The notes under the pieces: generated by a model
What the model saw: the letters and a program-made list of their open reading frames with translations, nothing else
Database searches by the model: none
Told to the model about the DNA's origin: nothing
Program-made: the position numbers and the translations under genes
From: a virus
IMG/VR virus record: IMGVR_UViG_3300027829_000004
Location: 1 to 29,770 of that record
Strand: one strand, 5' to 3'
DNA length: 29,770 nt
In this document: one piece after another, positions 2,923 to 28,854 of the stretch
How positions within the stretch are numbered: the first letter of the stretch is position 1
How the letters are laid out: each line of letters starts with the position of its first letter

Positions 2923-3150
2923 ATGTTTGCAGGATGGGGAGAAATAATAACTACAATAGCCGCAGCTTTAACCATTATTGTAGTGGTTATAGGTTCGGTG
3001 AGGTATTGGTTAAAAAAACTAGACCCAGTAACAGAACGTCTTGATCGTCATATCGTGGAATGTACTCATCAATTTAATGCTATGAATCAACGCATCGACA
3101 AGAGCTATGAGATCATTATCGAAATGTTAAAAGATAGGAAATCTGCTTAA
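2923..3150 (+). CDS. Small membrane-anchored coiled-coil protein, type B (copy 1)
   Basis: 75 residues. One strong transmembrane helix (about residues 8-28, ITTIAAALTIIVVVIGSVRYW) is followed by a charged helical tail ending in RIDKSYEIIIEMLKDRKSA. TAGGAGAT is a strong ribosome binding site, and the start is 18 bases after the preceding stop. The tail matches that of the protein at 18563-18769 (RIDK--EII--MLK-R), so it is a second pair of homologues between the two plus-strand cassettes. The shared LKDRKSA end with the type A gene beside it suggests local duplication or conversion. Function unknown; a lysis or membrane role is inference. Confidence 0.8.
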   Translation: MFAGWGEIITTIAAALTIIVVVIGSVRYWLKKLDPVTERLDRHIVECTHQFNAMNQRIDKSYEIIIEMLKDRKSA

Positions 3151-14694: not shown

Positions 14695-16779
14695 TTAGGC
14701 TACTTGTGCAGCTTGTGCAAACTGGGGTTGCTGCTCCCCAGGATAAGCCGATCCCTTAGCTTCTGCTTTGGTTTCGACTAACTCTTTTTGTTGTTGACGA
14801 GCCTGCTGTTTTTGCAACTCCATCAAGACGCCCATATCTTTTCTGGCATTGTCTCTTCCGAGGGCTTCAAGACCTGCCAATGTTTGAACGGTCTCCAGTC
14901 CCGATTTAGAGCGATCGTGGATACCTTGAGAAATGCGTTCGCGTGCAAGGCCCACATTGGCAACAGCTCTAGACTCTCGCTCTGCCACTCCCGACTGATT
15001 ATACTGTGCCTGACTCTTGAGCAGAGAAATAGCAGCCTCTTGCTGGGCAAGTTGAGATTGCATTTGGGCCATTGCTTGTTGTTGTTGCTGCTGTTCTTGC
15101 TGTCCAATGGCATCCAGCAATTCATTTTTGTTCTGTAGGGTGGCGCTCTTAAGTAGGACTGAATCAGGAATCTGGATACCCAGTTCACGCAGCTGCAAGA
15201 GCTGGGCAAACTGCATCTTTTTCTGGTCTGAAGTAAGTAGCCCTTCCTCAATAAGGCAATCATATTTCTGGAAGCGGGCACTGGAAAATTCTGGGGTGGG
15301 CTGTTTTCCAAGAATACGTTCAATCTTTGCTTCTCCAAAATTATTTTGAATTAGGTCGAGATAAAGATTTCCTAGGATTTTTTGAGCCATATCCAAGCGA
15401 TCGAAGAGCGGCTGCAGTGTGACAAGACCGGCCCCTTGACGAAGCATCGAAAGAATTCCAGCAGTCCCTTTCTCATTGGACATGCCAAAGAGCTCTTCAT
15501 TGACTCCGGCGATCTCCATAATCTCTTTTTCAATCTGAAGTTGCAATTCTAATAAACCAGGAGGAACCGTGGGTGTGGGGATCGGCTGAACGTCTCCTGG
15601 TTGAGCGGTAGACTTTGTGAACAGCGCTCGTCCTTGGCCGTTAAGATACACATCTTCAGGATTGACCAGAGCATCTTCTTTTACGATCCAGCCTGAGTTT
15701 GCTACAGAATCCAGAATGTCTAGAAGTTTGTTTCGACGACGATTCAATTCGATTTGAGAGTCACGAAGATTGCGTACGACCCCCTGAATACGGAACGACC
15801 AGTTAGCAAGCTCTGGGACGTAATAGGCCTGAATAGGAACGAACGGAAGCTTATCTGATCCATAAGGAGCCATCTCAGAATGGATCAATTTGTCGGCCAC
15901 GACAATATGTCTCATTACAGTAGGCTTTTGCGTCTCGATGACCTTCAAATCAGGATCGAACATGCGGAAAAGAGCTAACTGTTCATCATTTCCATCCCAT
16001 TCAACGATTTCTCCGGTAGACGGACGGATTAATTTTCTTACCACCCTAAAGGTTTGTTCCCAGTATTCATCGTAAGGAATGAGACGAAGGTTGGCATAAG
16101 AATATGACTGAGCCATCCAGGCAAATCTGCCATCGCGATTTCCATAGTCTCTATTCAATCCTTGCAAATTATCAATTTCAGGAACGAGAGAGCGCACCTG
16201 CTCAGGAGAGAGCCATTTTCGTACCCACACCCATCCGCAGTCACTTAAATCAGGGCGCGTCCAGAACGGGTCCATAATGAAGGAAGAAAATGGGAGGCGC
16301 GTACATCGTATTTCCCCGTTTTCCGGATCTTCTCGGTAGTCCATGTGGACCTGGAGGAGATTCAAACCCGTGATGACGGCCCCCTCAAAAGCATCTGAAA
16401 TCGTTTGATAGACATTGTCGTAATTGTGACACCATTGTATCACGCCACTGAGCTGATCGGCAGTTTCTTGAGCGGCATTTTCAATCGGAATCACGGTAGT
16501 AGTCAGGCGATTCTTGCGCTGATATCCAGTGATCATATTGACCACGCGCTTGACCTTATTGATCATGACCACATACTGCGTGGAGCGTACGCGACCCAAG
16601 GACTGATACCAAGCATTATAGGTCTGATCGCCGGCAGTCAAACGATTGTCTGTATCAGCTTCATACCACCACGACTGCCACATGGTGAGCGCCTTCGTAT
16701 AGTTATCTTGCATGCGCTTAAGAACCGAATAATCAGTTCCGGGCACACCACCTTGAATGGGTGTTCCAGTGTCAGGCAT
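14695..16779 (-). CDS. Portal protein, P22-like
   Basis: 694 residues, close to the 725 of P22 gp1. The early region (TAGDQTYNAWYQSLGRV, YVVMINKVKRVVNMITGYQR) and the region with SSFIMDPFWTRPDLSDCGWV and WLSPEQVRSLVPEI are typical of P22-type portals. The middle holds the clip/stem helices (RNLRDSQIELNRRRNKLLDI, IMEIAGVNEELFGMSNEKGT). A Gln-rich coiled coil near residues 560-610 (EQQQQQQQAMAQMQSQLAQQ) fits a barrel extension. The start overlaps the terminase stop by one base (TAATG), which couples portal and terminase synthesis. Confidence 0.88.
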   Translation of the reverse strand: MPDTGTPIQGGVPGTDYSVLKRMQDNYTKALTMWQSWWYEADTDNRLTAGDQTYNAWYQSLGRVRSTQYVVMINKVKRVVNMITGYQRKNRLTTTVIPIENAAQETADQLSGVIQWCHNYDNVYQTISDAFEGAVITGLNLLQVHMDYREDPENGEIRCTRLPFSSFIMDPFWTRPDLSDCGWVWVRKWLSPEQVRSLVPEIDNLQGLNRDYGNRDGRFAWMAQSYSYANLRLIPYDEYWEQTFRVVRKLIRPSTGEIVEWDGNDEQLALFRMFDPDLKVIETQKPTVMRHIVVADKLIHSEMAPYGSDKLPFVPIQAYYVPELANWSFRIQGVVRNLRDSQIELNRRRNKLLDILDSVANSGWIVKEDALVNPEDVYLNGQGRALFTKSTAQPGDVQPIPTPTVPPGLLELQLQIEKEIMEIAGVNEELFGMSNEKGTAGILSMLRQGAGLVTLQPLFDRLDMAQKILGNLYLDLIQNNFGEAKIERILGKQPTPEFSSARFQKYDCLIEEGLLTSDQKKMQFAQLLQLRELGIQIPDSVLLKSATLQNKNELLDAIGQQEQQQQQQAMAQMQSQLAQQEAAISLLKSQAQYNQSGVAERESRAVANVGLARERISQGIHDRSKSGLETVQTLAGLEALGRDNARKDMGVLMELQKQQARQQQKELVETKAEAKGSAYPGEQQPQFAQAAQVA

Positions 16780-18089
16780 TAATTTCCCGTCCCAAAGTGT
16801 TTATCTCGCATTTTCTTAATATCTTCTGCACTCATACCCTTCGCGTTGTAGTGCTGGACACCAAGCGACAAATATCTCATCGCATCAGCTCCATGAGACG
16901 ACCAATCATGCAGGGGGATATTCGAATAAACGTTCATCTTTTCGTTGAACTTCTTTCGATAATTCTCCAAACACCTAATCAGCTGTTTGCACTTAACTTC
17001 ATCTACCCAACAGCGCGGCAGTGTTGCACGCACACGTTCGATCCCATATTCTATATCTGTTCTAGAAATTACTTGATAGTCTAACCCGAGATCTTTTGCA
17101 TAAAGTCTTAACGATCGACCCGTTGAAAGATTGCTAGCCTCAACATCATGGGGGGCATAATGTCTGCCATAAAGATAAGGTTTTTCTTTCAGATCACGGA
17201 TATAATCGCGAATTCCTTTGCCGTGCTCTTCGTAATAATCAATTATATGTAACTCTTGGCCAACTCTTTGCAAAAAGATTATGGCAGTTGAATCACCAAA
17301 GCCCAGATCCCAATAAGTATCGACTGTGATAGCGGGATCATAAGGCACAGAACATATACGTCCATCTCTTCGCGCGTCGTCAATAAGCCTGCCATAATAA
17401 GTTCCTTCCACACCTCGCTCGAATGAGGTGTAATATTCTTGTTGAATCAGCTCTTCCGATCGACCCTCTTTGCGCTCTTTATCGAGCTCTTCTTTGGTGA
17501 TCAAACCAGTATCATCGACAGTGAGCTTCTGGACAAACCACTCAGGATTGTCCTTGGCCATGTCATAAAGCTCATAGAGATGGTTTTTTCCTCGAGGAGT
17601 GGAATTGAAGATTGCCCAGCCCTTATTTTTCAAAAGAATTGGACTAATTACTAATTCCCACGCCTTGTGGTCTTGAAGAGCGTACTCAGAAAATACGCAC
17701 CCACGAGGATTTGTCCCAGTAATAGAATCGTAATTATCGGTACCAATAAGCTGAATGATAGATCCCGAAACAAGTCGTATGCGCATTTCCATTTGATTAG
17801 GTTTTCCATCGATCAACTCCTTTGGAATAAAGTCTAAAAATCGTTTGCCTGACTCATCAATGCCGTCCCAGATGACCTTACGAGCATGACGTTGCGTGGG
17901 AAGAAGGTAGTAGTAAACTCCGCAGTTTTTCGTTTGCAGAGCCTCTCGAATAAGGAAGTTCCAACAAGCCACATCTTTGCCGGCTCGACGATGCCAAACC
18001 AACAGAGCGCGTTTAACCCCGTTCTCCATGGCTTCTTCAAAATCCAGCTGGTAGTCGCGCGGGACATACGGGAGGGTGATTATCGTCAT
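16779..18089 (-). CDS. terL: Terminase large subunit
   Basis: 436 residues. The ATPase domain shows Walker A HRRAGKD (33-39), Walker B CVFSEY (131-136, catalytic Glu 135) and the coupling motif FNSTPRGKNH (161-170). The nuclease domain has the first acidic residue in WDLGFGDST (Asp 261), a second candidate in IIDYYEEHG (near 284) and the last in HGADAMRY (Asp 402). The enzyme pumps DNA into the prohead through the portal and cuts the concatemer. The gene overlaps its upstream partner by 4 bases (ATGA) and the portal gene by 1. All key residues are present. Confidence 0.93.
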   Translation of the reverse strand: MTIITLPYVPRDYQLDFEEAMENGVKRALLVWHRRAGKDVACWNFLIREALQTKNCGVYYYLLPTQRHARKVIWDGIDESGKRFLDFIPKELIDGKPNQMEMRIRLVSGSIIQLIGTDNYDSITGTNPRGCVFSEYALQDHKAWELVISPILLKNKGWAIFNSTPRGKNHLYELYDMAKDNPEWFVQKLTVDDTGLITKEELDKERKEGRSEELIQQEYYTSFERGVEGTYYGRLIDDARRDGRICSVPYDPAITVDTYWDLGFGDSTAIIFLQRVGQELHIIDYYEEHGKGIRDYIRDLKEKPYLYGRHYAPHDVEASNLSTGRSLRLYAKDLGLDYQVISRTDIEYGIERVRATLPRCWVDEVKCKQLIRCLENYRKKFNEKMNVYSNIPLHDWSSHGADAMRYLSLGVQHYNAKGMSAEDIKKMRDKHFGTGN

Positions 18090-18463
18090 GCGGTTTTTCG
18101 CTTGGATTTACGCTCAGGACGCTGAGTCAGAAGCGTTATTGGTCCTTTAAGGCCCGACGTATCATCATTATCAGTATTACGATAATGGTGCCTATTGATA
18201 AGATAAAAGCGAGCAAAGCCCCCATCGAATTTCCTCGTAAGTGCATTTTTCACTATGTAGTTCTCTTCGTGTTTAATAGCATTTTGGTAAGCCCTTCCTG
18301 CGCGCTCATGTTCCGACGCCCACCTTTCGACCTGTTTTTGGTCATAGCCGCGCATAGACATGAAATCAGCCAACAAGAACTGCTCGGTTCTCACCCAGAT
18401 TTCGAGTTCATCGGCTAATTTTTCGTAAAAATGAGGATCAGACTGAGGATTTGCGGTTGACAT
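18086..18463 (-). CDS. Putative terminase small subunit
   Basis: 125 residues from the ATG at 18463; an upstream TTG at 18481 falls inside the inverted repeat and is disfavoured. The protein is helical and charged (DPHFYEKLADELEIWVRTEQ, YDQKQVERWASEHERAGRAY), has a DNA-binding-like N-terminal half and a basic tail (QRPERKSKRKTA). It is directly upstream of and overlaps the large terminase, the standard place for the DNA-recognition subunit. Identity rests on context and size; no helix-turn-helix was confidently recognised. Confidence 0.7.
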   Translation of the reverse strand: MSTANPQSDPHFYEKLADELEIWVRTEQFLLADFMSMRGYDQKQVERWASEHERAGRAYQNAIKHEENYIVKNALTRKFDGGFARFYLINRHHYRNTDNDDTSGLKGPITLLTQRPERKSKRKTA

Positions 18464-18465
18464 AG

Positions 18466-18502
18466 AGTAAATTTTTGACAATCAGACCGTTTTTGTCAAA
18501 AA
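18466..18502. promoter_or_regulatory. Divergent control region with 9-bp inverted repeat
   Basis: TTTTTGACA (18472-18480) and TGTCAAAAA (18494-18502) form a perfect inverted repeat with a 13-base spacer, between the divergent packaging and membrane-protein operons. Each arm carries a TTGACA -35 box, one per direction. The leftward one has a 17-base spacer to AAAAAT (4 of 6 for -10). The 15-base segment AGTAAATTTTTGACA at 18466-18480 recurs exactly at 25564-25578 upstream of the primase gene. It is probably a shared promoter/operator for a phage regulator. Confidence 0.55.
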
Positions 18503-21860: not shown

Positions 21861-22198
21861 ATAGTCTCTCTACTGTCGATTCTTTCTTTTATCTTCTTTA
21901 ACTCTTTTCCTGTGAGTGATCGTGGTTCTGGAAGCATAGAATAAATTCTATTAAACATTTGACGCAACGTGGTCGATCCGAATACCAAAATAGAAGCCAT
22001 TTTTGCCATCTGCTCTACCAGAACCACATTAGATACATCCTCATTCGGCTCCGATTCTTCCAGCCCATTACGAAAGTCGCAAAGCATGTCTACAAGTTTA
22101 CCAAACGCGATCATCTCTGATTCGGTAATGCCGTTCATCACCTGATCAAGGAATTCGTTAGAAAGACAATAGAAGCTGGTGTTGTCCGGAGTTAGCAT
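21857..22198 (-). CDS. Unknown small protein
   Basis: 113 residues from the ATG at 22198, preceded by GGAAAG; a TTG four codons upstream is less likely. Acidic, helical and soluble (NEFLDQVMNGITESEMIAFG, LVEQMAKMASILVFGSTTLR), with a basic last third (LTGKELKKIKERIDSRETI). It overlaps the end of the resolvase gene by 7 bases and the next gene by 4. No family recognised. Confidence 0.6.
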   Translation of the reverse strand: MLTPDNTSFYCLSNEFLDQVMNGITESEMIAFGKLVDMLCDFRNGLEESEPNEDVSNVVLVEQMAKMASILVFGSTTLRQMFNRIYSMLPEPRSLTGKELKKIKERIDSRETI

Positions 22199-22617
22199 TG
22201 TTCTTTCCAAACTTCAATTTCTGTTCTCGGTTCTTTGCCGTAGCGCTTTTTACACTGAACGCAACAGATTTGTCGGTCATCGGCGATGACGATTCCAGAA
22301 AGTACATCTAGTATCCACTTCAATAAATTATCGATATCTGGCTTTTTCTCGTGGAAAGAGTCCTCTAACGCATCCTTCTTCTTCTGTGACCAGGAGTCGG
22401 GAATTGGCATCACAAAATCAATGGTGAGGCTAATAGGCCCTTTCAGTGGGATTCCTCTATGTGGGGCTTGTGCCGCCACCTCCCACTGCTGGCTGTTTAG
22501 GAGGTGTGCTTGCTTATTGTACGCTCTTGATCTACTAAAGCGAGGACGAGCTTGTGCCACGGGATCGCCTTTAACCACTAAGGTAAATTCTTTTCGAAAA
22601 GACAAAGCGCTCTCCAT
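22192..22617 (-). CDS. rusA: RusA-type Holliday junction resolvase
   Basis: 141 residues from the ATG at 22617; a TTG at 22662 would add 15 residues and a longer overlap. The signature KPDIDNLLKWILDVLSG followed by VIADDRQI gives the acidic catalytic residues of RusA (two Asp in DIDN, then the D-L-G and DD pairs). The N-terminal part (VVKGDPVAQARPRFSRS) matches the usual PV-K-RPR start. RusA cuts four-way DNA junctions, here most likely to remove branches from replicated DNA before packaging. It overlaps the winged-helix gene by 47 bases. Confidence 0.88.
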   Translation of the reverse strand: MESALSFRKEFTLVVKGDPVAQARPRFSRSRAYNKQAHLLNSQQWEVAAQAPHRGIPLKGPISLTIDFVMPIPDSWSQKKKDALEDSFHEKKPDIDNLLKWILDVLSGIVIADDRQICCVQCKKRYGKEPRTEIEVWKEQC

Positions 22618-22828
22618 CGCGAAGGGTGGTTGAAAGATAGCCAAGATTTTTGAGTTTGACAACAGAATATTTTACTTTGTTTATGGGGATGTTGAGCTGA
22701 GAGGCGAGATACTTAGGCTTATCGAGAACCGAGCCGATGGCGAAAGATTCTATCCAAGAAACAAGAATTTTGTCTGTCCAGTCCATATTTTGATTGTGAA
22801 GAACATGCTCATTAATACTTAACGTCAT
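22571..22828 (-). CDS. Winged-helix DNA-binding protein
   Basis: 85 residues from the ATG at 22828, chosen because AGGAG lies 5 bases before it; the frame is open to 23041 but that part has no such site and runs into repeats. Residues 32-85 form a typical winged helix: YLASQLNIPINKVKYSVVKL as helix-turn-helix and NLGYLSTTLRDGERFVFS as the wing. It is the first gene left of the iteron region and may act in replication initiation or as a regulator of the leftward run. Which of these is unknown. Confidence 0.65.
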   Translation of the reverse strand: MTLSINEHVLHNQNMDWTDKILVSWIESFAIGSVLDKPKYLASQLNIPINKVKYSVVKLKNLGYLSTTLRDGERFVFSKRIYLSG

Positions 22829-23033
22829 ATTTGCTCCTGTTAAGGAATGGCCAGGCGTACAAGAAAGAATATTTTTACACAAGGTGTCATGTAAATTTTT
22901 TTTTACTTCCATGGCTTGCCACCTCGCTCTTCTCTTAAAATTTCGCAGATCAACCATGTTGGTGACGTCAACAAAATGGTCGGTTTGCGGGCGCGCGCAA
23001 AGAGGTTTGGAATGGGAAAAATGCCAAAAAAGA

Positions 23034-23295
23034 GGTGTCACAGGTGTCCCAAGTATGACTCATGTAATGTCATTAGTAATTTTCTCTTTTAGTCCTTTAT
23101 TCTTATATATTTACTTCTACTGTCACAAGTAACATAAGTAAAAGTATATATACCAATGAAAACATAAAAAATAGGGTATAATACATTTTCAGCCGGAGTT
23201 AGAGGGTTACCTGTGACACCCGAAAATTGACGTATAAGTAGTGGTAATCAATGGCTTAAGTGTCTCAGGTAGCTTTTTCGGTTCACCCGTGACGG
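23034..23295. other. Candidate replication origin with iterons
   Basis: The gap 22829-23299 has no convincing gene. Repeated sites close to TGTCACAGGT are at 23036-23045 (exact), 23045-23054 (8 of 10), 23121-23130 (9 of 10), 23209-23218 (exact, other strand), 23261-23270 (9 of 10) and 23285-23294 (8 of 10, other strand). GGTGTCACAGGT at 23034-23045 and its complement at 23209-23220 form a perfect 12-bp inverted repeat. Between them, about 23101-23200, the sequence is very AT-rich. The primase-helicase gene ends 5 bases away. P4-type primase-helicases are known to bind short iterons at their origin, so this is the likely start site of replication. Confidence 0.6.
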
Positions 23296-23299
23296 AGGC

Positions 23300-25537
23300 T
23301 TATTTCGTGCCTTTCAAAAATGTACTTTCAAGCTCTATTCGTGCCATTTCTAGTGTTGGCACGTCCAAAAATCGCGGTCTTTCGCCATTTAGCCTGAGTT
23401 GTTGAGTTGTGACAGAGGGGACCATTTTGTTGAGTTTTCGAAAGAAGTGAACTTCGTTTTCTGGGTGGTTGCGAATTTTATTTCGGTCCGTCCAATCGAG
23501 GTAACACTGATAAATTTCCCGTTTCATTAGTTTACCCCATGGTTTTTGTGGTTCATTGAGGTAGCAGTCGAAAAATCCTGTATCTAGCACTTGGTGAATA
23601 TAGAGTGCTAAAGATCCCAATGATTGGAGTTTTATATCGATTAGTCGTTCTTGTGATTTTTCGGAGGTAGTGGGTCTTTGTCGTGGGTCAAAGTTTTTGA
23701 TGTCTTCGTTCAAGAGATCATAAAGAATGGCTTCATATCCTCCGGCTTGGAGGGCTGCAAAATATTTATCAAAATATTGTTTTTCATTTTTGTGTCTATC
23801 GGAAACATTCAAAATGACCATACGACGATCGTCTGTGTCTACGAAGGCGGGGAAAGATTCGTTGGTAGACATAATGATGTGTTTGCAGTTGATGTCTTCG
23901 CGAATCTCTCTGCCTTTTCCTTCGTAGGCGCAGCGATTGTCTGTAATCATCGCTTTTAGGGCTCCACGGCATTGTTTGTCTCCTCCCCATAACGCTTCGT
24001 TGGCGTGTACCAAAATAAGGGATTGGAGGTGACTATTGAATCTTCCTAGGAGTCTATCTAGGGAATCGAATGAGCTGAAGTGTCGTCCTAAAAGAGCACC
24101 TATTGGATCTACAAATGCGTTTTTCCCTATGCCTTGAGATCCCATTAAGATTAGAGCGGTGTGAAGAATTTCTGGCTTTTGAAATACAATGGCCAACCAT
24201 TTGCGTACGTATAGGTATGTCTCTTCGTTTGAATCACAGATGACTTCTCGGGCGTGGTCCCAAAAGAATTGAGTGTCACCTGGAATCGCCTCATAAGAAA
24301 ATCCTGACCAAAGGTTCATATAGTCAGATCCTGGATTTTGATGCGGTCTAAAGATGATTCCTTTGACTGTATTTCGTTTGGGGTGGTTAAACCAGATATC
24401 TGCTTTAGTACGAAATTTTCCTCCGCCAATTTCGATCCTTTGATTTTGATATCTAAGTCTAAAAGAGTCCTTGCTCATTTGAGTAAATGTACCATCTGGA
24501 AGATGCTCTATAATCGACATATTTGGTCCCGCTTCCGCTGTGTGGTGCTGATTCATTTCATAAGCGGCTTCATCTTGAGCGTCGATAAAAAGCTGTTTGC
24601 GGGTGACTTCTGATCCTTCGCTGATAAATAGGTCATTGAAATCAGTTCCTCTGTCTTCTTCTTTGGAAAAATGAGGAAGCAAGTAACGCACTTTGTGCTT
24701 AGAAAAAAGCATGTGAGCAGTTTCTAGACCGGCATTCTTCTCCTTGAAACGATCATTGTCTGCACAAACTGTTATCTGCATTCTTGGATAATGCTTTCTC
24801 AGTTCTGTGACGACTGGATCCAAATTGATGCAATCGTAAGAAATCACTACGGGTGTCTGCATTAATTCAAAAATTGTGGCTCCTGTCGCATACCCTTCGC
24901 AGATATAGCACTTAGAAGCGCCTGACAGTGTGCCTAGAACATGAAAATGGCCCTTCTTTTTACCTCCTGGAAAATAACGCTTTTCATGAGGAGCTTTGGA
25001 TGTGATGAACTGAAGTGTCTTGATCTCTCCGTGAATATCTCTCAAGGGAAGCACCAATGAAAGACTGCCTTGAGCATTCTCTGCAATCTTTAGTCCATGA
25101 ACATGCACTTTCTTCAGTTCCAAATAAGGATGAGATCTGGCGACTTCTGCCTTCTCCCATATCTGTCTAGCTGTTTTTTCAGCTGCTTCCTGATCTTTTT
25201 CCAATCCTTTTTTAATAGATTGGATTTTAAGAATCTGACAGCGATTGATGGCTTCTCGATCCATACGATCGCTTGGCAAAGATGACTTGTAAACGAAAGG
25301 CTCGTTGCCTAGACGCCAAGAGCCATATTTAACGACCAGCCATTCTGTCCCGTCTCGACTTATTCCGCTGTGGGCTACGTACCATTCGGCGATGTCTTTT
25401 GGATTATCTTGCCTGCAAGAATAACGATGGAGTTGGCCGTCTATCTTGAGATGGCTGTCTATGGGACACAATCCATCTTGAGACATTTTCGTTAGGCATT
25501 CGTCGATGAAATCATTGAGACGTCGTGATTCATTCAT
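23300..25537 (-). CDS. Primase-helicase, P4/D5 type (DUF5906-like helicase)
   Basis: 745 residues. Residues 200-310 form a Toprim-type domain (CYICEGYATG with Glu 214, VCADND at 258-262, GTDFNDL at 297-303). Residues 430-620 are an SF3/D5-like helicase: Walker A GSQGIGKN (466-473), Walker B LILVHANEAL (507-516), sensor HIIMSTNE (553-560) and DDRR (569-572, arginine finger). The N-terminal 150 residues resemble the DNA-binding start of such phage primases. It should unwind the origin and prime synthesis by the host polymerase, as no phage polymerase is seen. The ATG at 25537 is 27 bases from the 15-base motif shared with the terminase upstream region. Confidence 0.9.
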   Translation of the reverse strand: MNESRRLNDFIDECLTKMSQDGLCPIDSHLKIDGQLHRYSCRQDNPKDIAEWYVAHSGISRDGTEWLVVKYGSWRLGNEPFVYKSSLPSDRMDREAINRCQILKIQSIKKGLEKDQEAAEKTARQIWEKAEVARSHPYLELKKVHVHGLKIAENAQGSLSLVLPLRDIHGEIKTLQFITSKAPHEKRYFPGGKKKGHFHVLGTLSGASKCYICEGYATGATIFELMQTPVVISYDCINLDPVVTELRKHYPRMQITVCADNDRFKEKNAGLETAHMLFSKHKVRYLLPHFSKEEDRGTDFNDLFISEGSEVTRKQLFIDAQDEAAYEMNQHHTAEAGPNMSIIEHLPDGTFTQMSKDSFRLRYQNQRIEIGGGKFRTKADIWFNHPKRNTVKGIIFRPHQNPGSDYMNLWSGFSYEAIPGDTQFFWDHAREVICDSNEETYLYVRKWLAIVFQKPEILHTALILMGSQGIGKNAFVDPIGALLGRHFSSFDSLDRLLGRFNSHLQSLILVHANEALWGGDKQCRGALKAMITDNRCAYEGKGREIREDINCKHIIMSTNESFPAFVDTDDRRMVILNVSDRHKNEKQYFDKYFAALQAGGYEAILYDLLNEDIKNFDPRQRPTTSEKSQERLIDIKLQSLGSLALYIHQVLDTGFFDCYLNEPQKPWGKLMKREIYQCYLDWTDRNKIRNHPENEVHFFRKLNKMVPSVTTQQLRLNGERPRFLDVPTLEMARIELESTFLKGTK

Positions 25538-25875: not shown

Positions 25876-26133
25876 TTACTTCTCGTCAACATAGAGTCCG
25901 CGAAAGTTTTTTCCCGTGCGTTTTCGCGCTTCTTCGATCTGCTCATTAATCTTTTCCATATCTTCACAGGTCACTTCTCCTCGAGTAAATCGCTCTATCT
26001 GAAGAGCCATTCCTAGGGAAACTTTCGTTCGACCGGTGTAGAAGCCATAAAATGACTGATAGATGATTCCGGATTCCTTGCAGAATTTTTTTGAAGATAC
26101 TAAATATTTTTTGAAATACTCTCGTAAGTTCAT
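25876..26133 (-). CDS. Cro/CI-like helix-turn-helix regulator
   Basis: 85 residues. Residues 14-58 have the pattern of the Cro/YdaS type helix-turn-helix: KKFCKESGIIYQSFYGFYTG followed by RTKVSLGMALQIERFTRGEV and TCEDM, as in proteins that read (G--VS--LGMALQIER-T-GEV). The N-terminus is short (MNLREYFKKYLVS) and the C-terminus charged. It is transcribed away from the early plus-strand operon across a 153-base control region with an inverted repeat over a -35 box, the classical arrangement for a phage switch regulator. Without an integrase, control of early expression rather than lysogeny is the safer reading. Confidence 0.75.
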   Translation of the reverse strand: MNLREYFKKYLVSSKKFCKESGIIYQSFYGFYTGRTKVSLGMALQIERFTRGEVTCEDMEKINEQIEEARKRTGKNFRGLYVDEK

Positions 26134-26553: not shown

Positions 26554-26753
26554 AAGAATGGGAAGTCTGGGAAAATCCAAAGTATGAGCAATTGAAGAAA
26601 TCTCATGTCATAAAAGAACTATCAGAAATAAATGATATTAGAGAGGTTTTAAGAACTTTAGTTAAAATCGCTTATGGTTTAGAATTATATAATCGAAATG
26701 TAGTGGAAGATAATTTCAAAAAGTTAGAAGATTTTGTCAACTCAGAGGAATAA
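26544..26753 (+). CDS. Unknown small early protein
   Basis: 69 residues, acidic and helical (MQLEEWEVWENPKYEQLKKS, REVLRTLVKIAYGLELY), soluble. AGGAGA stands 7 bases before the ATG. It sits between the first early gene and the annealing-protein gene, with base composition more AT-rich than the recombination genes. No family recognised. Confidence 0.65.
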   Translation: MQLEEWEVWENPKYEQLKKSHVIKELSEINDIREVLRTLVKIAYGLELYNRNVVEDNFKKLEDFVNSEE

Positions 26754-26754
26754 A

Positions 26755-27522
26755 ATGGAAAAAATTAAGGAAGAAAAAATAGTTGCAATTCCTACTTCGA
26801 ATCACGTCCAGCAATTGGAAGAGATGAAGACGCTTTGCAAATCGCTTATGGCAACAAAGCACTATGGAAAGATGGGAGAAGAAGGAATCTTCGCCATTAT
26901 CCAAAAAGCGAAATCTTTAGGACTTGATCCAATCGATGCTCTTAATGGTGGTCTTTATGTCGTGCAAGGCCGCGTGATGATGCCAGCGGAAACAATGAAT
27001 CGATTGATTCGTCAAGCCGGTCATTCGATCAGCAAAGATCCAAAATCTGATGAAAGAACTTGTGTCTTGCAGGGCAAGCGCTCGGACAATGGGGATACTT
27101 GGACAGAGTCCTTCTCTATCGATGATGCGAAGCGCGCTGGAATCTATAAAGATGGGGGCACATGGTCGAAGTATCCGAAGGCGATGCTTTTTGCTAGAGC
27201 TCTGAGTACATTGGCGAGACAACTTTTCCCAGATGTCATTTCTGGGTGTTATGTGGAAGGGGAAATCGTAGAGAACGCTTTCAAGGAAACGACTTTGGAA
27301 ATCGAAGAAGAACCGATCAAGTACGTTGGAGACGAAGAAATAGAACATATTCTTTTTTTGGTGAGCGGTGACTTGGATTATATCAAGAAGATTGAGACCC
27401 ATTTTGGAGGTTCACTTAAGAACATTCCAATGGACCAATATGAGCGCGTACTCAAGCAAATTTCAAAATATCAAGAAGGAAAGGAAGCTCTAAAAGCAGC
27501 CATGGATGGAGAGGTGAGATGA
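26755..27522 (+). CDS. Single-strand annealing protein, RecT/Bet-like
   Basis: 255 residues from the ATG at 26755, which has AGAGGA upstream. The sequence KMGEEGIFAIIQKAKSLGLD, PIDALNGGLYVVQGRVMMPA and YPKAMLFARALSTLARQLFP follows the pattern of phage recombinases of the RecT/Redbeta superfamily. These coat single strands made by the partner exonuclease and anneal them to homologous DNA. The exonuclease gene lies one gene downstream, which supports the pairing. The last 60 residues are a variable charged tail. The exact subfamily is not settled by eye. Confidence 0.78.
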   Translation: MEKIKEEKIVAIPTSNHVQQLEEMKTLCKSLMATKHYGKMGEEGIFAIIQKAKSLGLDPIDALNGGLYVVQGRVMMPAETMNRLIRQAGHSISKDPKSDERTCVLQGKRSDNGDTWTESFSIDDAKRAGIYKDGGTWSKYPKAMLFARALSTLARQLFPDVISGCYVEGEIVENAFKETTLEIEEEPIKYVGDEEIEHILFLVSGDLDYIKKIETHFGGSLKNIPMDQYERVLKQISKYQEGKEALKAAMDGEVR

Positions 27523-28022
27523 AGATATTTGGTTTATTAATATTAGTATTTACTTCTGTTTTTTCTTGTTCTTGTTTAGATGCGTTTTATATATACAATA
27601 TTTCAGACATAAATTACAATAAATCAAAGAATACTATCACATTTTTTTATGATTATGACCAGTATTATGAATTGGATGAACAGTTAGAACCTTGCAAAAT
27701 TGTTTGTGAAATAGATTGTAGGAACTGTCACATCTACGAAGATGATTGTGGGTATGCTACTTTGGATATACGGCATCTAAAAACCAAGGAAATGAAAATA
27801 AAAACAATATTTAAAGACAACTCTGAGAAATGTGAAAATTTAACGTCTGATGCAATTAAATTTAATAAATATGAAGATGGATGGATTCGAGATTCTGTCT
27901 ATTGGGTTGGTAAAAATATAATTGTTTTCAGGGTATATACTGAAACTGAACCTTGCAGGATAGCCGATATTGGTGGAATTGCCTTTATTAAGTATAGAAT
28001 TCTGGAGAAAAAAGATGATTAA
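27519..28022 (+). CDS. Secreted Cys-rich protein, possible lipoprotein
   Basis: 167 residues. A clear signal peptide (MKIFGLLILVFTSVFSCSC, residues 1-19) ends in Cys 17 and Cys 19, a possible lipoprotein or signal peptidase I site. The mature part is beta-like, with nine Cys in total, five of them in LEPCKIVCEIDCRNCH--DDC, suggesting disulphides outside the cytoplasm. It overlaps the annealing-protein stop (ATGA) and the exonuclease start (8 bases). It is noticeably more AT-rich than both, pointing to a later insertion. No family recognised; a superinfection-exclusion or surface role is possible. Confidence 0.65.
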   Translation: MKIFGLLILVFTSVFSCSCLDAFYIYNISDINYNKSKNTITFFYDYDQYYELDEQLEPCKIVCEIDCRNCHIYEDDCGYATLDIRHLKTKEMKIKTIFKDNSEKCENLTSDAIKFNKYEDGWIRDSVYWVGKNIIVFRVYTETEPCRIADIGGIAFIKYRILEKKDD

Positions 28023-28854
28023 TCATTTAGTCCCAGGCTCTGTAGAGTGGCTTGAATTTCGTCGCAGTAAGATAGGAGCTTCCGATGTTCCAATCATTTG
28101 CGAGAAGGCTCCATGGTCTTCTCCTTATGAGTTATGGCAAGAAAAGCTGGGACTTAAGGAAAAAGTCTTAAGTGATGCTATGAAAAGAGGGACTCAGAAT
28201 GAAGAAAGGGCCAGACAAGCATATGAAGAAAAATTCTGTATTCTGATGTTTCCAAAAGTCGTGATTCATGCCAAATATCCATGGCTCATGGCTACTCTGG
28301 ATGGTCTTGATATAGACGGCAATCATGCAGTCGAAATCAAGAGCGGCGAACGCAGTTATGCAATGGCTAAAGAGGGGATTATACCAGAATATTATCAACT
28401 CCAGCTACAAACTCAGATGGAATGCGCCAATCTAGACGCTATCTCTTACTGGGCGTGGCTTCCAGATCATGATCCCATTCATCTGAAGTTAGAGCGCAAT
28501 TCAAAACTGTTTTCTTCAATATTTCCTGCTGTAGAAGCATTCTGGGAGCACTTGAAGAACAAGACGCCTCCAGATCATATCGAAGAGCGAAAGGATCAAC
28601 TTTGGTGTGAAAGTGCTAAACGATATCTCGATATTCGAAGACAGCTTAAAGAGCTCGAAAGGCAAGAAGAAGAAGAGAGGAAATTTCTCATTGATCTAGC
28701 CGATTCCAAAAGTTGTTGCGGCGCTGGCTTGCTTATGAAGAAAGCGGCCTCCAAAGGAAGAATTGACTACTCGAAGATTCCCGAATTAGCAAGTGTTGAT
28801 CTTGAATCCTATCGAGGAGAACCGATCCAGAAATGGTATTTTCAAGAAGGCTGA
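28015..28854 (+). CDS. YqaJ/lambda-type exonuclease
   Basis: 279 residues from the ATG at 28015 (GGAG upstream); an in-frame start at 27970 falls inside the previous gene. Motifs of the viral recombinase exonuclease family are in order: WLEFRRSKIGASDVP (12-26), RGTQNEERA (58-66, metal-binding Glu), LMATLDG (91-97, Asp 96), VEIKS (106-110, catalytic Glu 107 and Lys 109) and YYQLQLQTQM (126-135). It digests one strand of double-stranded DNA to load the annealing protein. A Glu/Arg-rich coiled coil near 200-225 follows. It ends in a 13-base overlap with the opposing gene. Confidence 0.88.
   Translation: MINHLVPGSVEWLEFRRSKIGASDVPIICEKAPWSSPYELWQEKLGLKEKVLSDAMKRGTQNEERARQAYEEKFCILMFPKVVIHAKYPWLMATLDGLDIDGNHAVEIKSGERSYAMAKEGIIPEYYQLQLQTQMECANLDAISYWAWLPDHDPIHLKLERNSKLFSSIFPAVEAFWEHLKNKTPPDHIEERKDQLWCESAKRYLDIRRQLKELERQEEEERKFLIDLADSKSCCGAGLLMKKAASKGRIDYSKIPELASVDLESYRGEPIQKWYFQEG

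Follow-up and report, generated by a model that had tools for sequence, protein, structure and literature searches.

Where does an uncultured tailed phage begin to copy its DNA, and which of its proteins recognizes that place? The question is raised by a complete IMG/VR virus record (IMGVR_UViG_3300027829_000004), all 29,770 bases of which form the window analysed here. A gene-free stretch in this window, which we call the gap, carries short repeats that end beside the gene of a large primase-helicase.

A repeat array in the gene-free region

The gap is bounded by the ATG of a gene for an 85-residue protein (22828) and by the stop codon of the primase-helicase gene (23300). A preliminary description, made from the letters alone, had placed here an AT-rich core and six sites similar to TGTCACAGGT, two of them exact, one on each strand, ending 5 bases from the primase-helicase gene. 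All of these features are present (Table 1). The gap contains a 141-base core of 26% GC. The exact sites are at 23036 (+) and 23209 (−), those with one mismatch at 23121 and 23261, and those with two mismatches at 23045 and 23285. Together they span 23036–23294, and it is the site at 23285–23294 that lies 5 bases from the gene; a seventh, at 23405, falls within the primase gene. However, the repeat unit is longer than described and differently phased: it has about 13 bases, TTACYTGWGWNAC, and TGTCACAGGT is one degenerate form of TTACYTGWGWNAC read backwards. We name the repeats (hereafter iterons) A to E3. Within a group they are spaced by 9 and 11 bases; E1–E3 occupy one side and A–C the other, with the AT-rich core and D1–D2 between them.

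Table 1. Features of the gap and its neighbours in the window, with iterons aligned to those of the relative L003
Feature	Sequence	Positions	Strand	Aligned letters, window / L003	Remarks
RusA-like Holliday junction resolvase		22192..22662	-		next gene after the 85-aa gene, same operon
85-aa winged-helix DNA-binding protein		22571..22828	-		phrog_270 E 2.3e-4, phrog_428 E 0.006
Candidate origin region, gene-free		22829..23299			471 bases, 39% GC; place kept in L003, 2537-3325
28-bp dyad	ACCATGTTGGTGACGTCAACAAAATGGT	22953..22980			between repeats and winged-helix gene
Iteron E3	ACACCTGTGACAC	23035..23047	-	ACACCTGTGACACC / GTTACCTGAGTTAC	contains an exact TGTCACAGGT
Iteron E2	ATACTTGGGACAC	23044..23056	-	CATACTTGGGACAC / CTTACCTGAGTGTT	9 bases from E3
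Iteron E1	TTACATGAGTCAT	23055..23067	-	ATTACATGAGTCAT / ATTACCTGAGACTT	11 bases from E2; window's best match to the L003-trained matrix
AT-rich core, likely melting region		23068..23206			79% AT at 23073-23172, which ranks second in AT content among 100-base stretches of the window
Iteron D2	TTACTTGTGACAG	23120..23132	-	GTTACTTGTGACAG / GTTACTTGAGTAAT	within AT-rich core
Iteron D1	TTACTTATGTTAC	23129..23141	-	TTTTACTTATGTTAC / TTTTACTTGAGTTAC	9 bases from D2
Iteron C	TTACCTGTGACAC	23207..23219	+	GTGTCACAGGTAAC / ATTACTCAAGTAAC	inverted in window and L003
Iteron B	CTACCTGAGACAC	23260..23272	-	CTACCTGAGACAC / GTTACATGAGTAAC
Weak iteron A	ACCCGTGACG	23285..23294	+		5 bases from primase stop; same place as CACAGGT in L003
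Primase-helicase, 745 aa		23300..25537	-		stop codon abuts repeat array

Allowing two mismatches, TGTCACAGGT occurs 33 times in the window against 19.8 expected, a count reached by none of 100 shuffled sequences, and six of the 33 matches fall within 260 bases of the gap. The motif is thus clustered in the gap and less frequent elsewhere, which is the outcome that an iteron array required in the preliminary description. Because the motif had been picked from the gap itself, we added a motif-free test, comparing the most-repeated k-mer of the gap with that of dinucleotide shuffles; the result was marginal (p ∼0.03–0.04). When near-copies of one 9-mer were counted, none of 322 other 270-base stretches of the window matched the gap. 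Motif statistics of this kind are too weak alone, so the comparison with relatives is decisive.

Cumulative GC skew, proposed earlier as a further guide, reaches its minimum at 22,384, near the gap, about 450 bases to its left and outside it. This position is compatible with an origin in the gap, a weak and confounded indication, since skew also follows the direction of genes and transcription.

Conservation in a relative

A query with the terminase found one close relative, contig IMGVR_UViG_3300017528_000401 (hereafter L003), which has the same gene order and whose terminase and primase are 92% and 73% identical to those of the window. The primase as a single query found no relatives in viral contigs or genome contigs, nor did A1 in genome contigs.

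The gap is conserved in L003, as the preliminary description had anticipated for related phages. At least seven repeats, plus weak iteron A, lie in register and on the same strands in the two phages, with differing letters (Table 1). The layout of two groups around an AT-rich core is kept, the core itself (23059–23155) being 77% identical over 97 bases, and the array begins 5 bases (window) or about 8 bases (L003) from the primase stop. Moreover, matrices trained on one phage find the repeats of the other. A matrix built from the window's seven repeats places its six best hits among ∼34,000 L003 positions all in the L003 gap; one built from the L003 repeats places three of its five best, among 59,516 window positions, in the window's gap. 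The conserved register and the cross-trained matrices therefore indicate selection on the repeats as such, including where the letters have drifted apart. A within-gap shuffle p of only 0.03–0.04 would leave room for a chance cluster in an AT-rich gap, but the conservation of repeats and strands argues against it, and the cross-trained matrices, which find the same places in both phages, refute it; we regard chance as scarcely credible.

The primase-helicase

The 745-residue protein matches phage primase families in a profile search. Residues 211–310 form a Toprim_3 primase domain (motif CEGYATGAT, E 3.1e-9) and residues 464–572 a DUF5906/SF3-like helicase (LMGSQGIGKN; DUF5906 E 1.3e-15). In a PDB search the helicase part matched the helicase domain of entries 6k9c/6k9e (E 6.7e-13), which we take to be the NrS-1 primase. 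A Toprim primase and an SF3 helicase in one chain is a feature of P4-like alpha proteins, and to this extent the earlier label "P4-type" was apt. However, on the P4 family model TIGR01613 the protein scores 22.7 bits and its L003 counterpart 30.9 bits, against a curated cut-off of 108.7, which places the primase-helicase outside the P4 family as judged from its sequence and leaves a remote likeness. A PDB sequence search for a C-terminal winged helix of the P4 alpha type gave no match in the primase, and the model of its C-terminal half (pLDDT 35) was too poor for use.

Repeat arrays behind other primase genes

With a two-sequence alignment of the window and L003 primases we found distant primases, 23–25% identical over the alignment. 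Directly 3′ of the stop codons of several lie short repeats: GGTAAC in L040, TTTTCCA in L041, TACCCC in L043–L050, GTACCC in L047 and GTACA in L052. Three of five annotated phages tested have strong arrays in this place. Halomonas phage H4907 has 11 copies of TCAGACAG, divided into two sets by an AT-rich stretch (L280, 4456–4704). Directly 3′ of their DUF5906 primase genes, Pseudomonas phage PG1 has 8–11 copies of TGTGTYGGG (L281, 4571–4904) and Stenotrophomonas phage S1 has 8–9 of TGTGCGGG (L283, 2452–2651). Behind the primases of the other two, YB23 and Aergia, no strong array was found. The three arrays, which do not appear as origins in the listed feature annotations, are probably the origins of these phages. 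They share with the window the succession of DUF5906 primase gene and array, whereas the proteins are only about 25–28% identical and the repeats unrelated.

In nine of 13 loci, repeats are densest in the 270 bases that follow the primase (among them L041, L043, L047, L052, H4907, PG1 and S1); in L044, YB23 and Aergia they are not. Some homologues with 3′ repeats carry an AAA_25 (RecA-like) domain in place of the SF3 helicase. The constant partner of the arrays is therefore the Toprim primase gene and not one helicase type, and the repeats may be bound by a part other than the SF3 half. In L040, L043–L050, L047 and L052 the first repeats are followed, some 90–130 bases behind the primase stop, by a hairpin such as ACACCCCTTTAGGGGTGT, which may be a terminator or a part of the origin.

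Short-repeat arrays also serve in packaging or partition, so the gap might be a cos/pac or partition site. No result of our analysis points to such a role. The window does contain terminase, portal and major capsid genes, but the terminase genes (16779–18481) lie 5 kb from the gap, no ParA/ParB-like gene was seen beside it, and across phages such arrays track primase genes. A packaging or partition role is accordingly very improbable.

The 85-residue protein as repeat-binding candidate

The structure model of the 85-residue protein is a winged helix only, with a GntR/MarR-like fold, and its weak phrog_270 match is to the N-terminal part of phage replication initiators. Its gene adjoins the gap in L003 too. 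It could possibly be an alternative or additional repeat-binding protein, and two further readings of the gap follow.

The repeats could be operators, and the gap no origin. The gap lies upstream of the winged-helix gene, and the operon with the RusA-like resolvase starts in it; a promoter-like −35 element (GTGACA) overlaps a repeat at 23126; and either the 85-residue protein, modelled as it is, or a YdaS/Cro-like regulator (25876–26133) could bind there. Against this, both phages have the repeats 207–466 bases from the start of the winged-helix gene, at the end of the gap nearest the primase, and the winged-helix side is less conserved. Seven or eight sites around an AT-rich core would be unusual for an operator, and repeats recur behind primases where other genes follow. 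We think operator control quite improbable as the explanation of the array. On the far side of the primase (26734–28854 and 25876–26133), the regulator's gene is accompanied by those for a RecT-like annealing protein and a YqaJ/RecE-like exonuclease; no integrase was seen among the window proteins examined.

Alternatively, the origin is real and the 85-residue protein is its initiator, in the manner of lambda O, with the primase-helicase recruited later. This variant shares the origin function with our preferred model. It draws on the weak phrog matches (phrog_270, E 2.3e-4; phrog_428, E 0.006), the winged-helix model and the conserved place beside the gap. However, distant homologues of the primase retain the 3′ repeats, and genes other than that for the winged-helix protein follow them in L043–L052, so that what accompanies the repeats throughout is the Toprim primase gene. 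Moreover, in lambda O-type systems the origin is within the O gene. That the small protein is the initiator is a real but unlikely possibility.

A candidate origin and its relation to known systems

From the repeats, the places and strands that they keep in L003, the conserved AT-rich core and the arrays behind homologous genes, we infer that the gap is probably the phage's replication origin. Its initiator would be a protein of the phage itself, most likely the Toprim-SF3 primase-helicase, and would bind seven or eight iterons of the TTACYTGWGWNAC type, in two groups around the core. The primase-helicase would assemble on the iterons of both sides, the core would melt, and the protein would load as a ring helicase and start primer synthesis, a course of events also proposed for SaPI Rep and P4 alpha. 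The 85-residue protein may act as co-initiator or regulator, binding the repeats, the dyad described below or both. An iteron-type origin adjacent to the primase-helicase gene, as first described, is thus well supported by the conservation in L003 and by the layout behind related primases, with the correction of the unit given above.

The closest known organization is that of SaPI/PICI elements, not that of P4. In PICIs the origin directly follows the 3′ end of the initiator gene and always has an AT-rich region between two sets of iterons (PMC6092414). SaPI Rep recognizes iterons directly downstream of its own gene through its C-terminal domain (PMC7581432). The window resembles this pri-rep-ori arrangement (PMC6092414, PMC7581432) in the place of the origin, in the two iteron sets around an AT-rich region, in an initiator that joins helicase and (often) primase, and in iteron sequences that vary between elements. 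It differs in having a Toprim_3 primase, a DUF5906-type helicase and ∼13-base, partly inverted repeats, and its origin is a predicted one. Furthermore, PICIs are satellites that lack full virion genes and are induced by a helper phage, whereas the window is a phage with terminase, portal and major capsid genes; because it has virion genes of its own, the element is not a PICI.

P4 alpha, whose origin repeats are bound by a winged helix (PMC4234260), shares with the window a Toprim-type primase fused to a ring helicase and paired with repeats. Unlike the P4 satellite, the window has no satellite genes, and the TIGR01613 score separates the proteins. Cch2 of SCCmec, like the window protein, has a Primase_Cterm-type helicase and binds direct repeats just downstream of its own gene, but its polymerase/primase is separate and its iterons, of 5 nt each, number only three (PMC7581432).

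The layout is therefore of the SaPI/PICI "rep-ori" kind, already known, and found here in an uncultured tailed phage with a lineage-specific repeat. Of the new iteron family proposed earlier, the lineage-specific sequence stands, but it does not make a new kind of replicon, since the iterons of other such replicons are lineage-specific likewise. The uncultured lineage gains a defined, testable candidate origin and a candidate initiator. A layout that has been described as confined to phage satellites also occurs behind the primases of ordinary tailed phages, which suggests a wider spread. It also yields a simple guide to phage origins, namely to inspect the bases immediately 3′ of the Toprim-DUF5906 primase gene. 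With a repeat of its own in each lineage, sets of matching primases and iterons could reveal how the specificity of initiators evolves.

A widespread dyad in the same region

The dyad between the iterons and the winged-helix gene is present in L003 at 2845–2872, with a more diverged copy at 2996–3023, and belongs to a family of the form ACCATTTT-SNY-GANNYC-RNS-AAAATGGT. One 21-letter form was matched in 92 viral-contig stretches. The general form CCATTTTNNNGANNYCNNNAAAATGG occurs in at least 120 viral stretches, against four for a reversed pattern of equal composition and symmetry (dyad loci L058–L149 and L158–L274). Across 90 distinct contexts, the inner bases agree as half-sites far more often than after shuffling, 71 times against 39 at the first position and 66 against 34 at the second. 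From this symmetric covariation we propose that the dyad is recognized by a dimeric protein family of varying specificity.

Copies lie in unrelated intergenic spots and unrelated genes, in phages and plasmids of bacteria from several phyla; hosts or sources of the matching records include Streptococcus, Flavobacterium, Fusobacterium, Akkermansia, Porphyromonas and a Criblamydia plasmid. Within genes, such as those for Bro-N (dinD-type) antirepressors and portal proteins, the dyad is often in frame as DHFxxxxKMV. In Bro-N (dinD-like) proteins it encodes DHF[V/A/R][D/E]V[N/G/T]KMV (L062 11425–12345, L137 3780–4676, L190, L238, L264 8730–9575). Two residues are exchanged jointly, as V..N, A..G or R..T, in step with the base pairs of the dyad, which suggests selection at the DNA level within the gene.

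Other accounts of the dyad were rejected or are disfavoured. The idea that it is a general part of origins was rejected, only three of 84 non-coding contexts exceeding shuffles in repeats; in the dyad loci no full primase-family gene was found, only three short PriCT-like matches. An RNA hairpin is not favoured, as sense-strand mismatches (nine A-C, five G-U) show no preference for wobble pairs. Nor is the dyad mere dinD coding sequence, being present in non-coding DNA and other genes. A search for its insertion found no exact empty sites, within a range of 12–40 that left out filled sites (44 bases); one dyad form had no match in E. coli genomes, and the part of the literature covered contained no paper with dyad sequences.

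That the gap combines a PICI-type origin with an undescribed, very widespread dyad family, read by dimeric proteins of varying specificity, is a reading we put forward tentatively and with some doubt. Such proteins might be site-specific recombinases or regulators of phages. The dyad family is the less explained and perhaps the more novel part of the gap; if new, it would be a DNA signal common to phages of several phyla and without a known reader.

Two dyads with different inner bases also occur side by side, 26–39 bases apart, in L128 (2312/2338), L111 (8858/8890), L233 (5358/5397) and Aeromonas phage phiA005 (21872–21935). L163 (3027), L174 (971), L208 (745) and L222 (7432) have closely similar flanks around dyads that differ in their inner bases, so that the core of the dyad changes while its surroundings stay.
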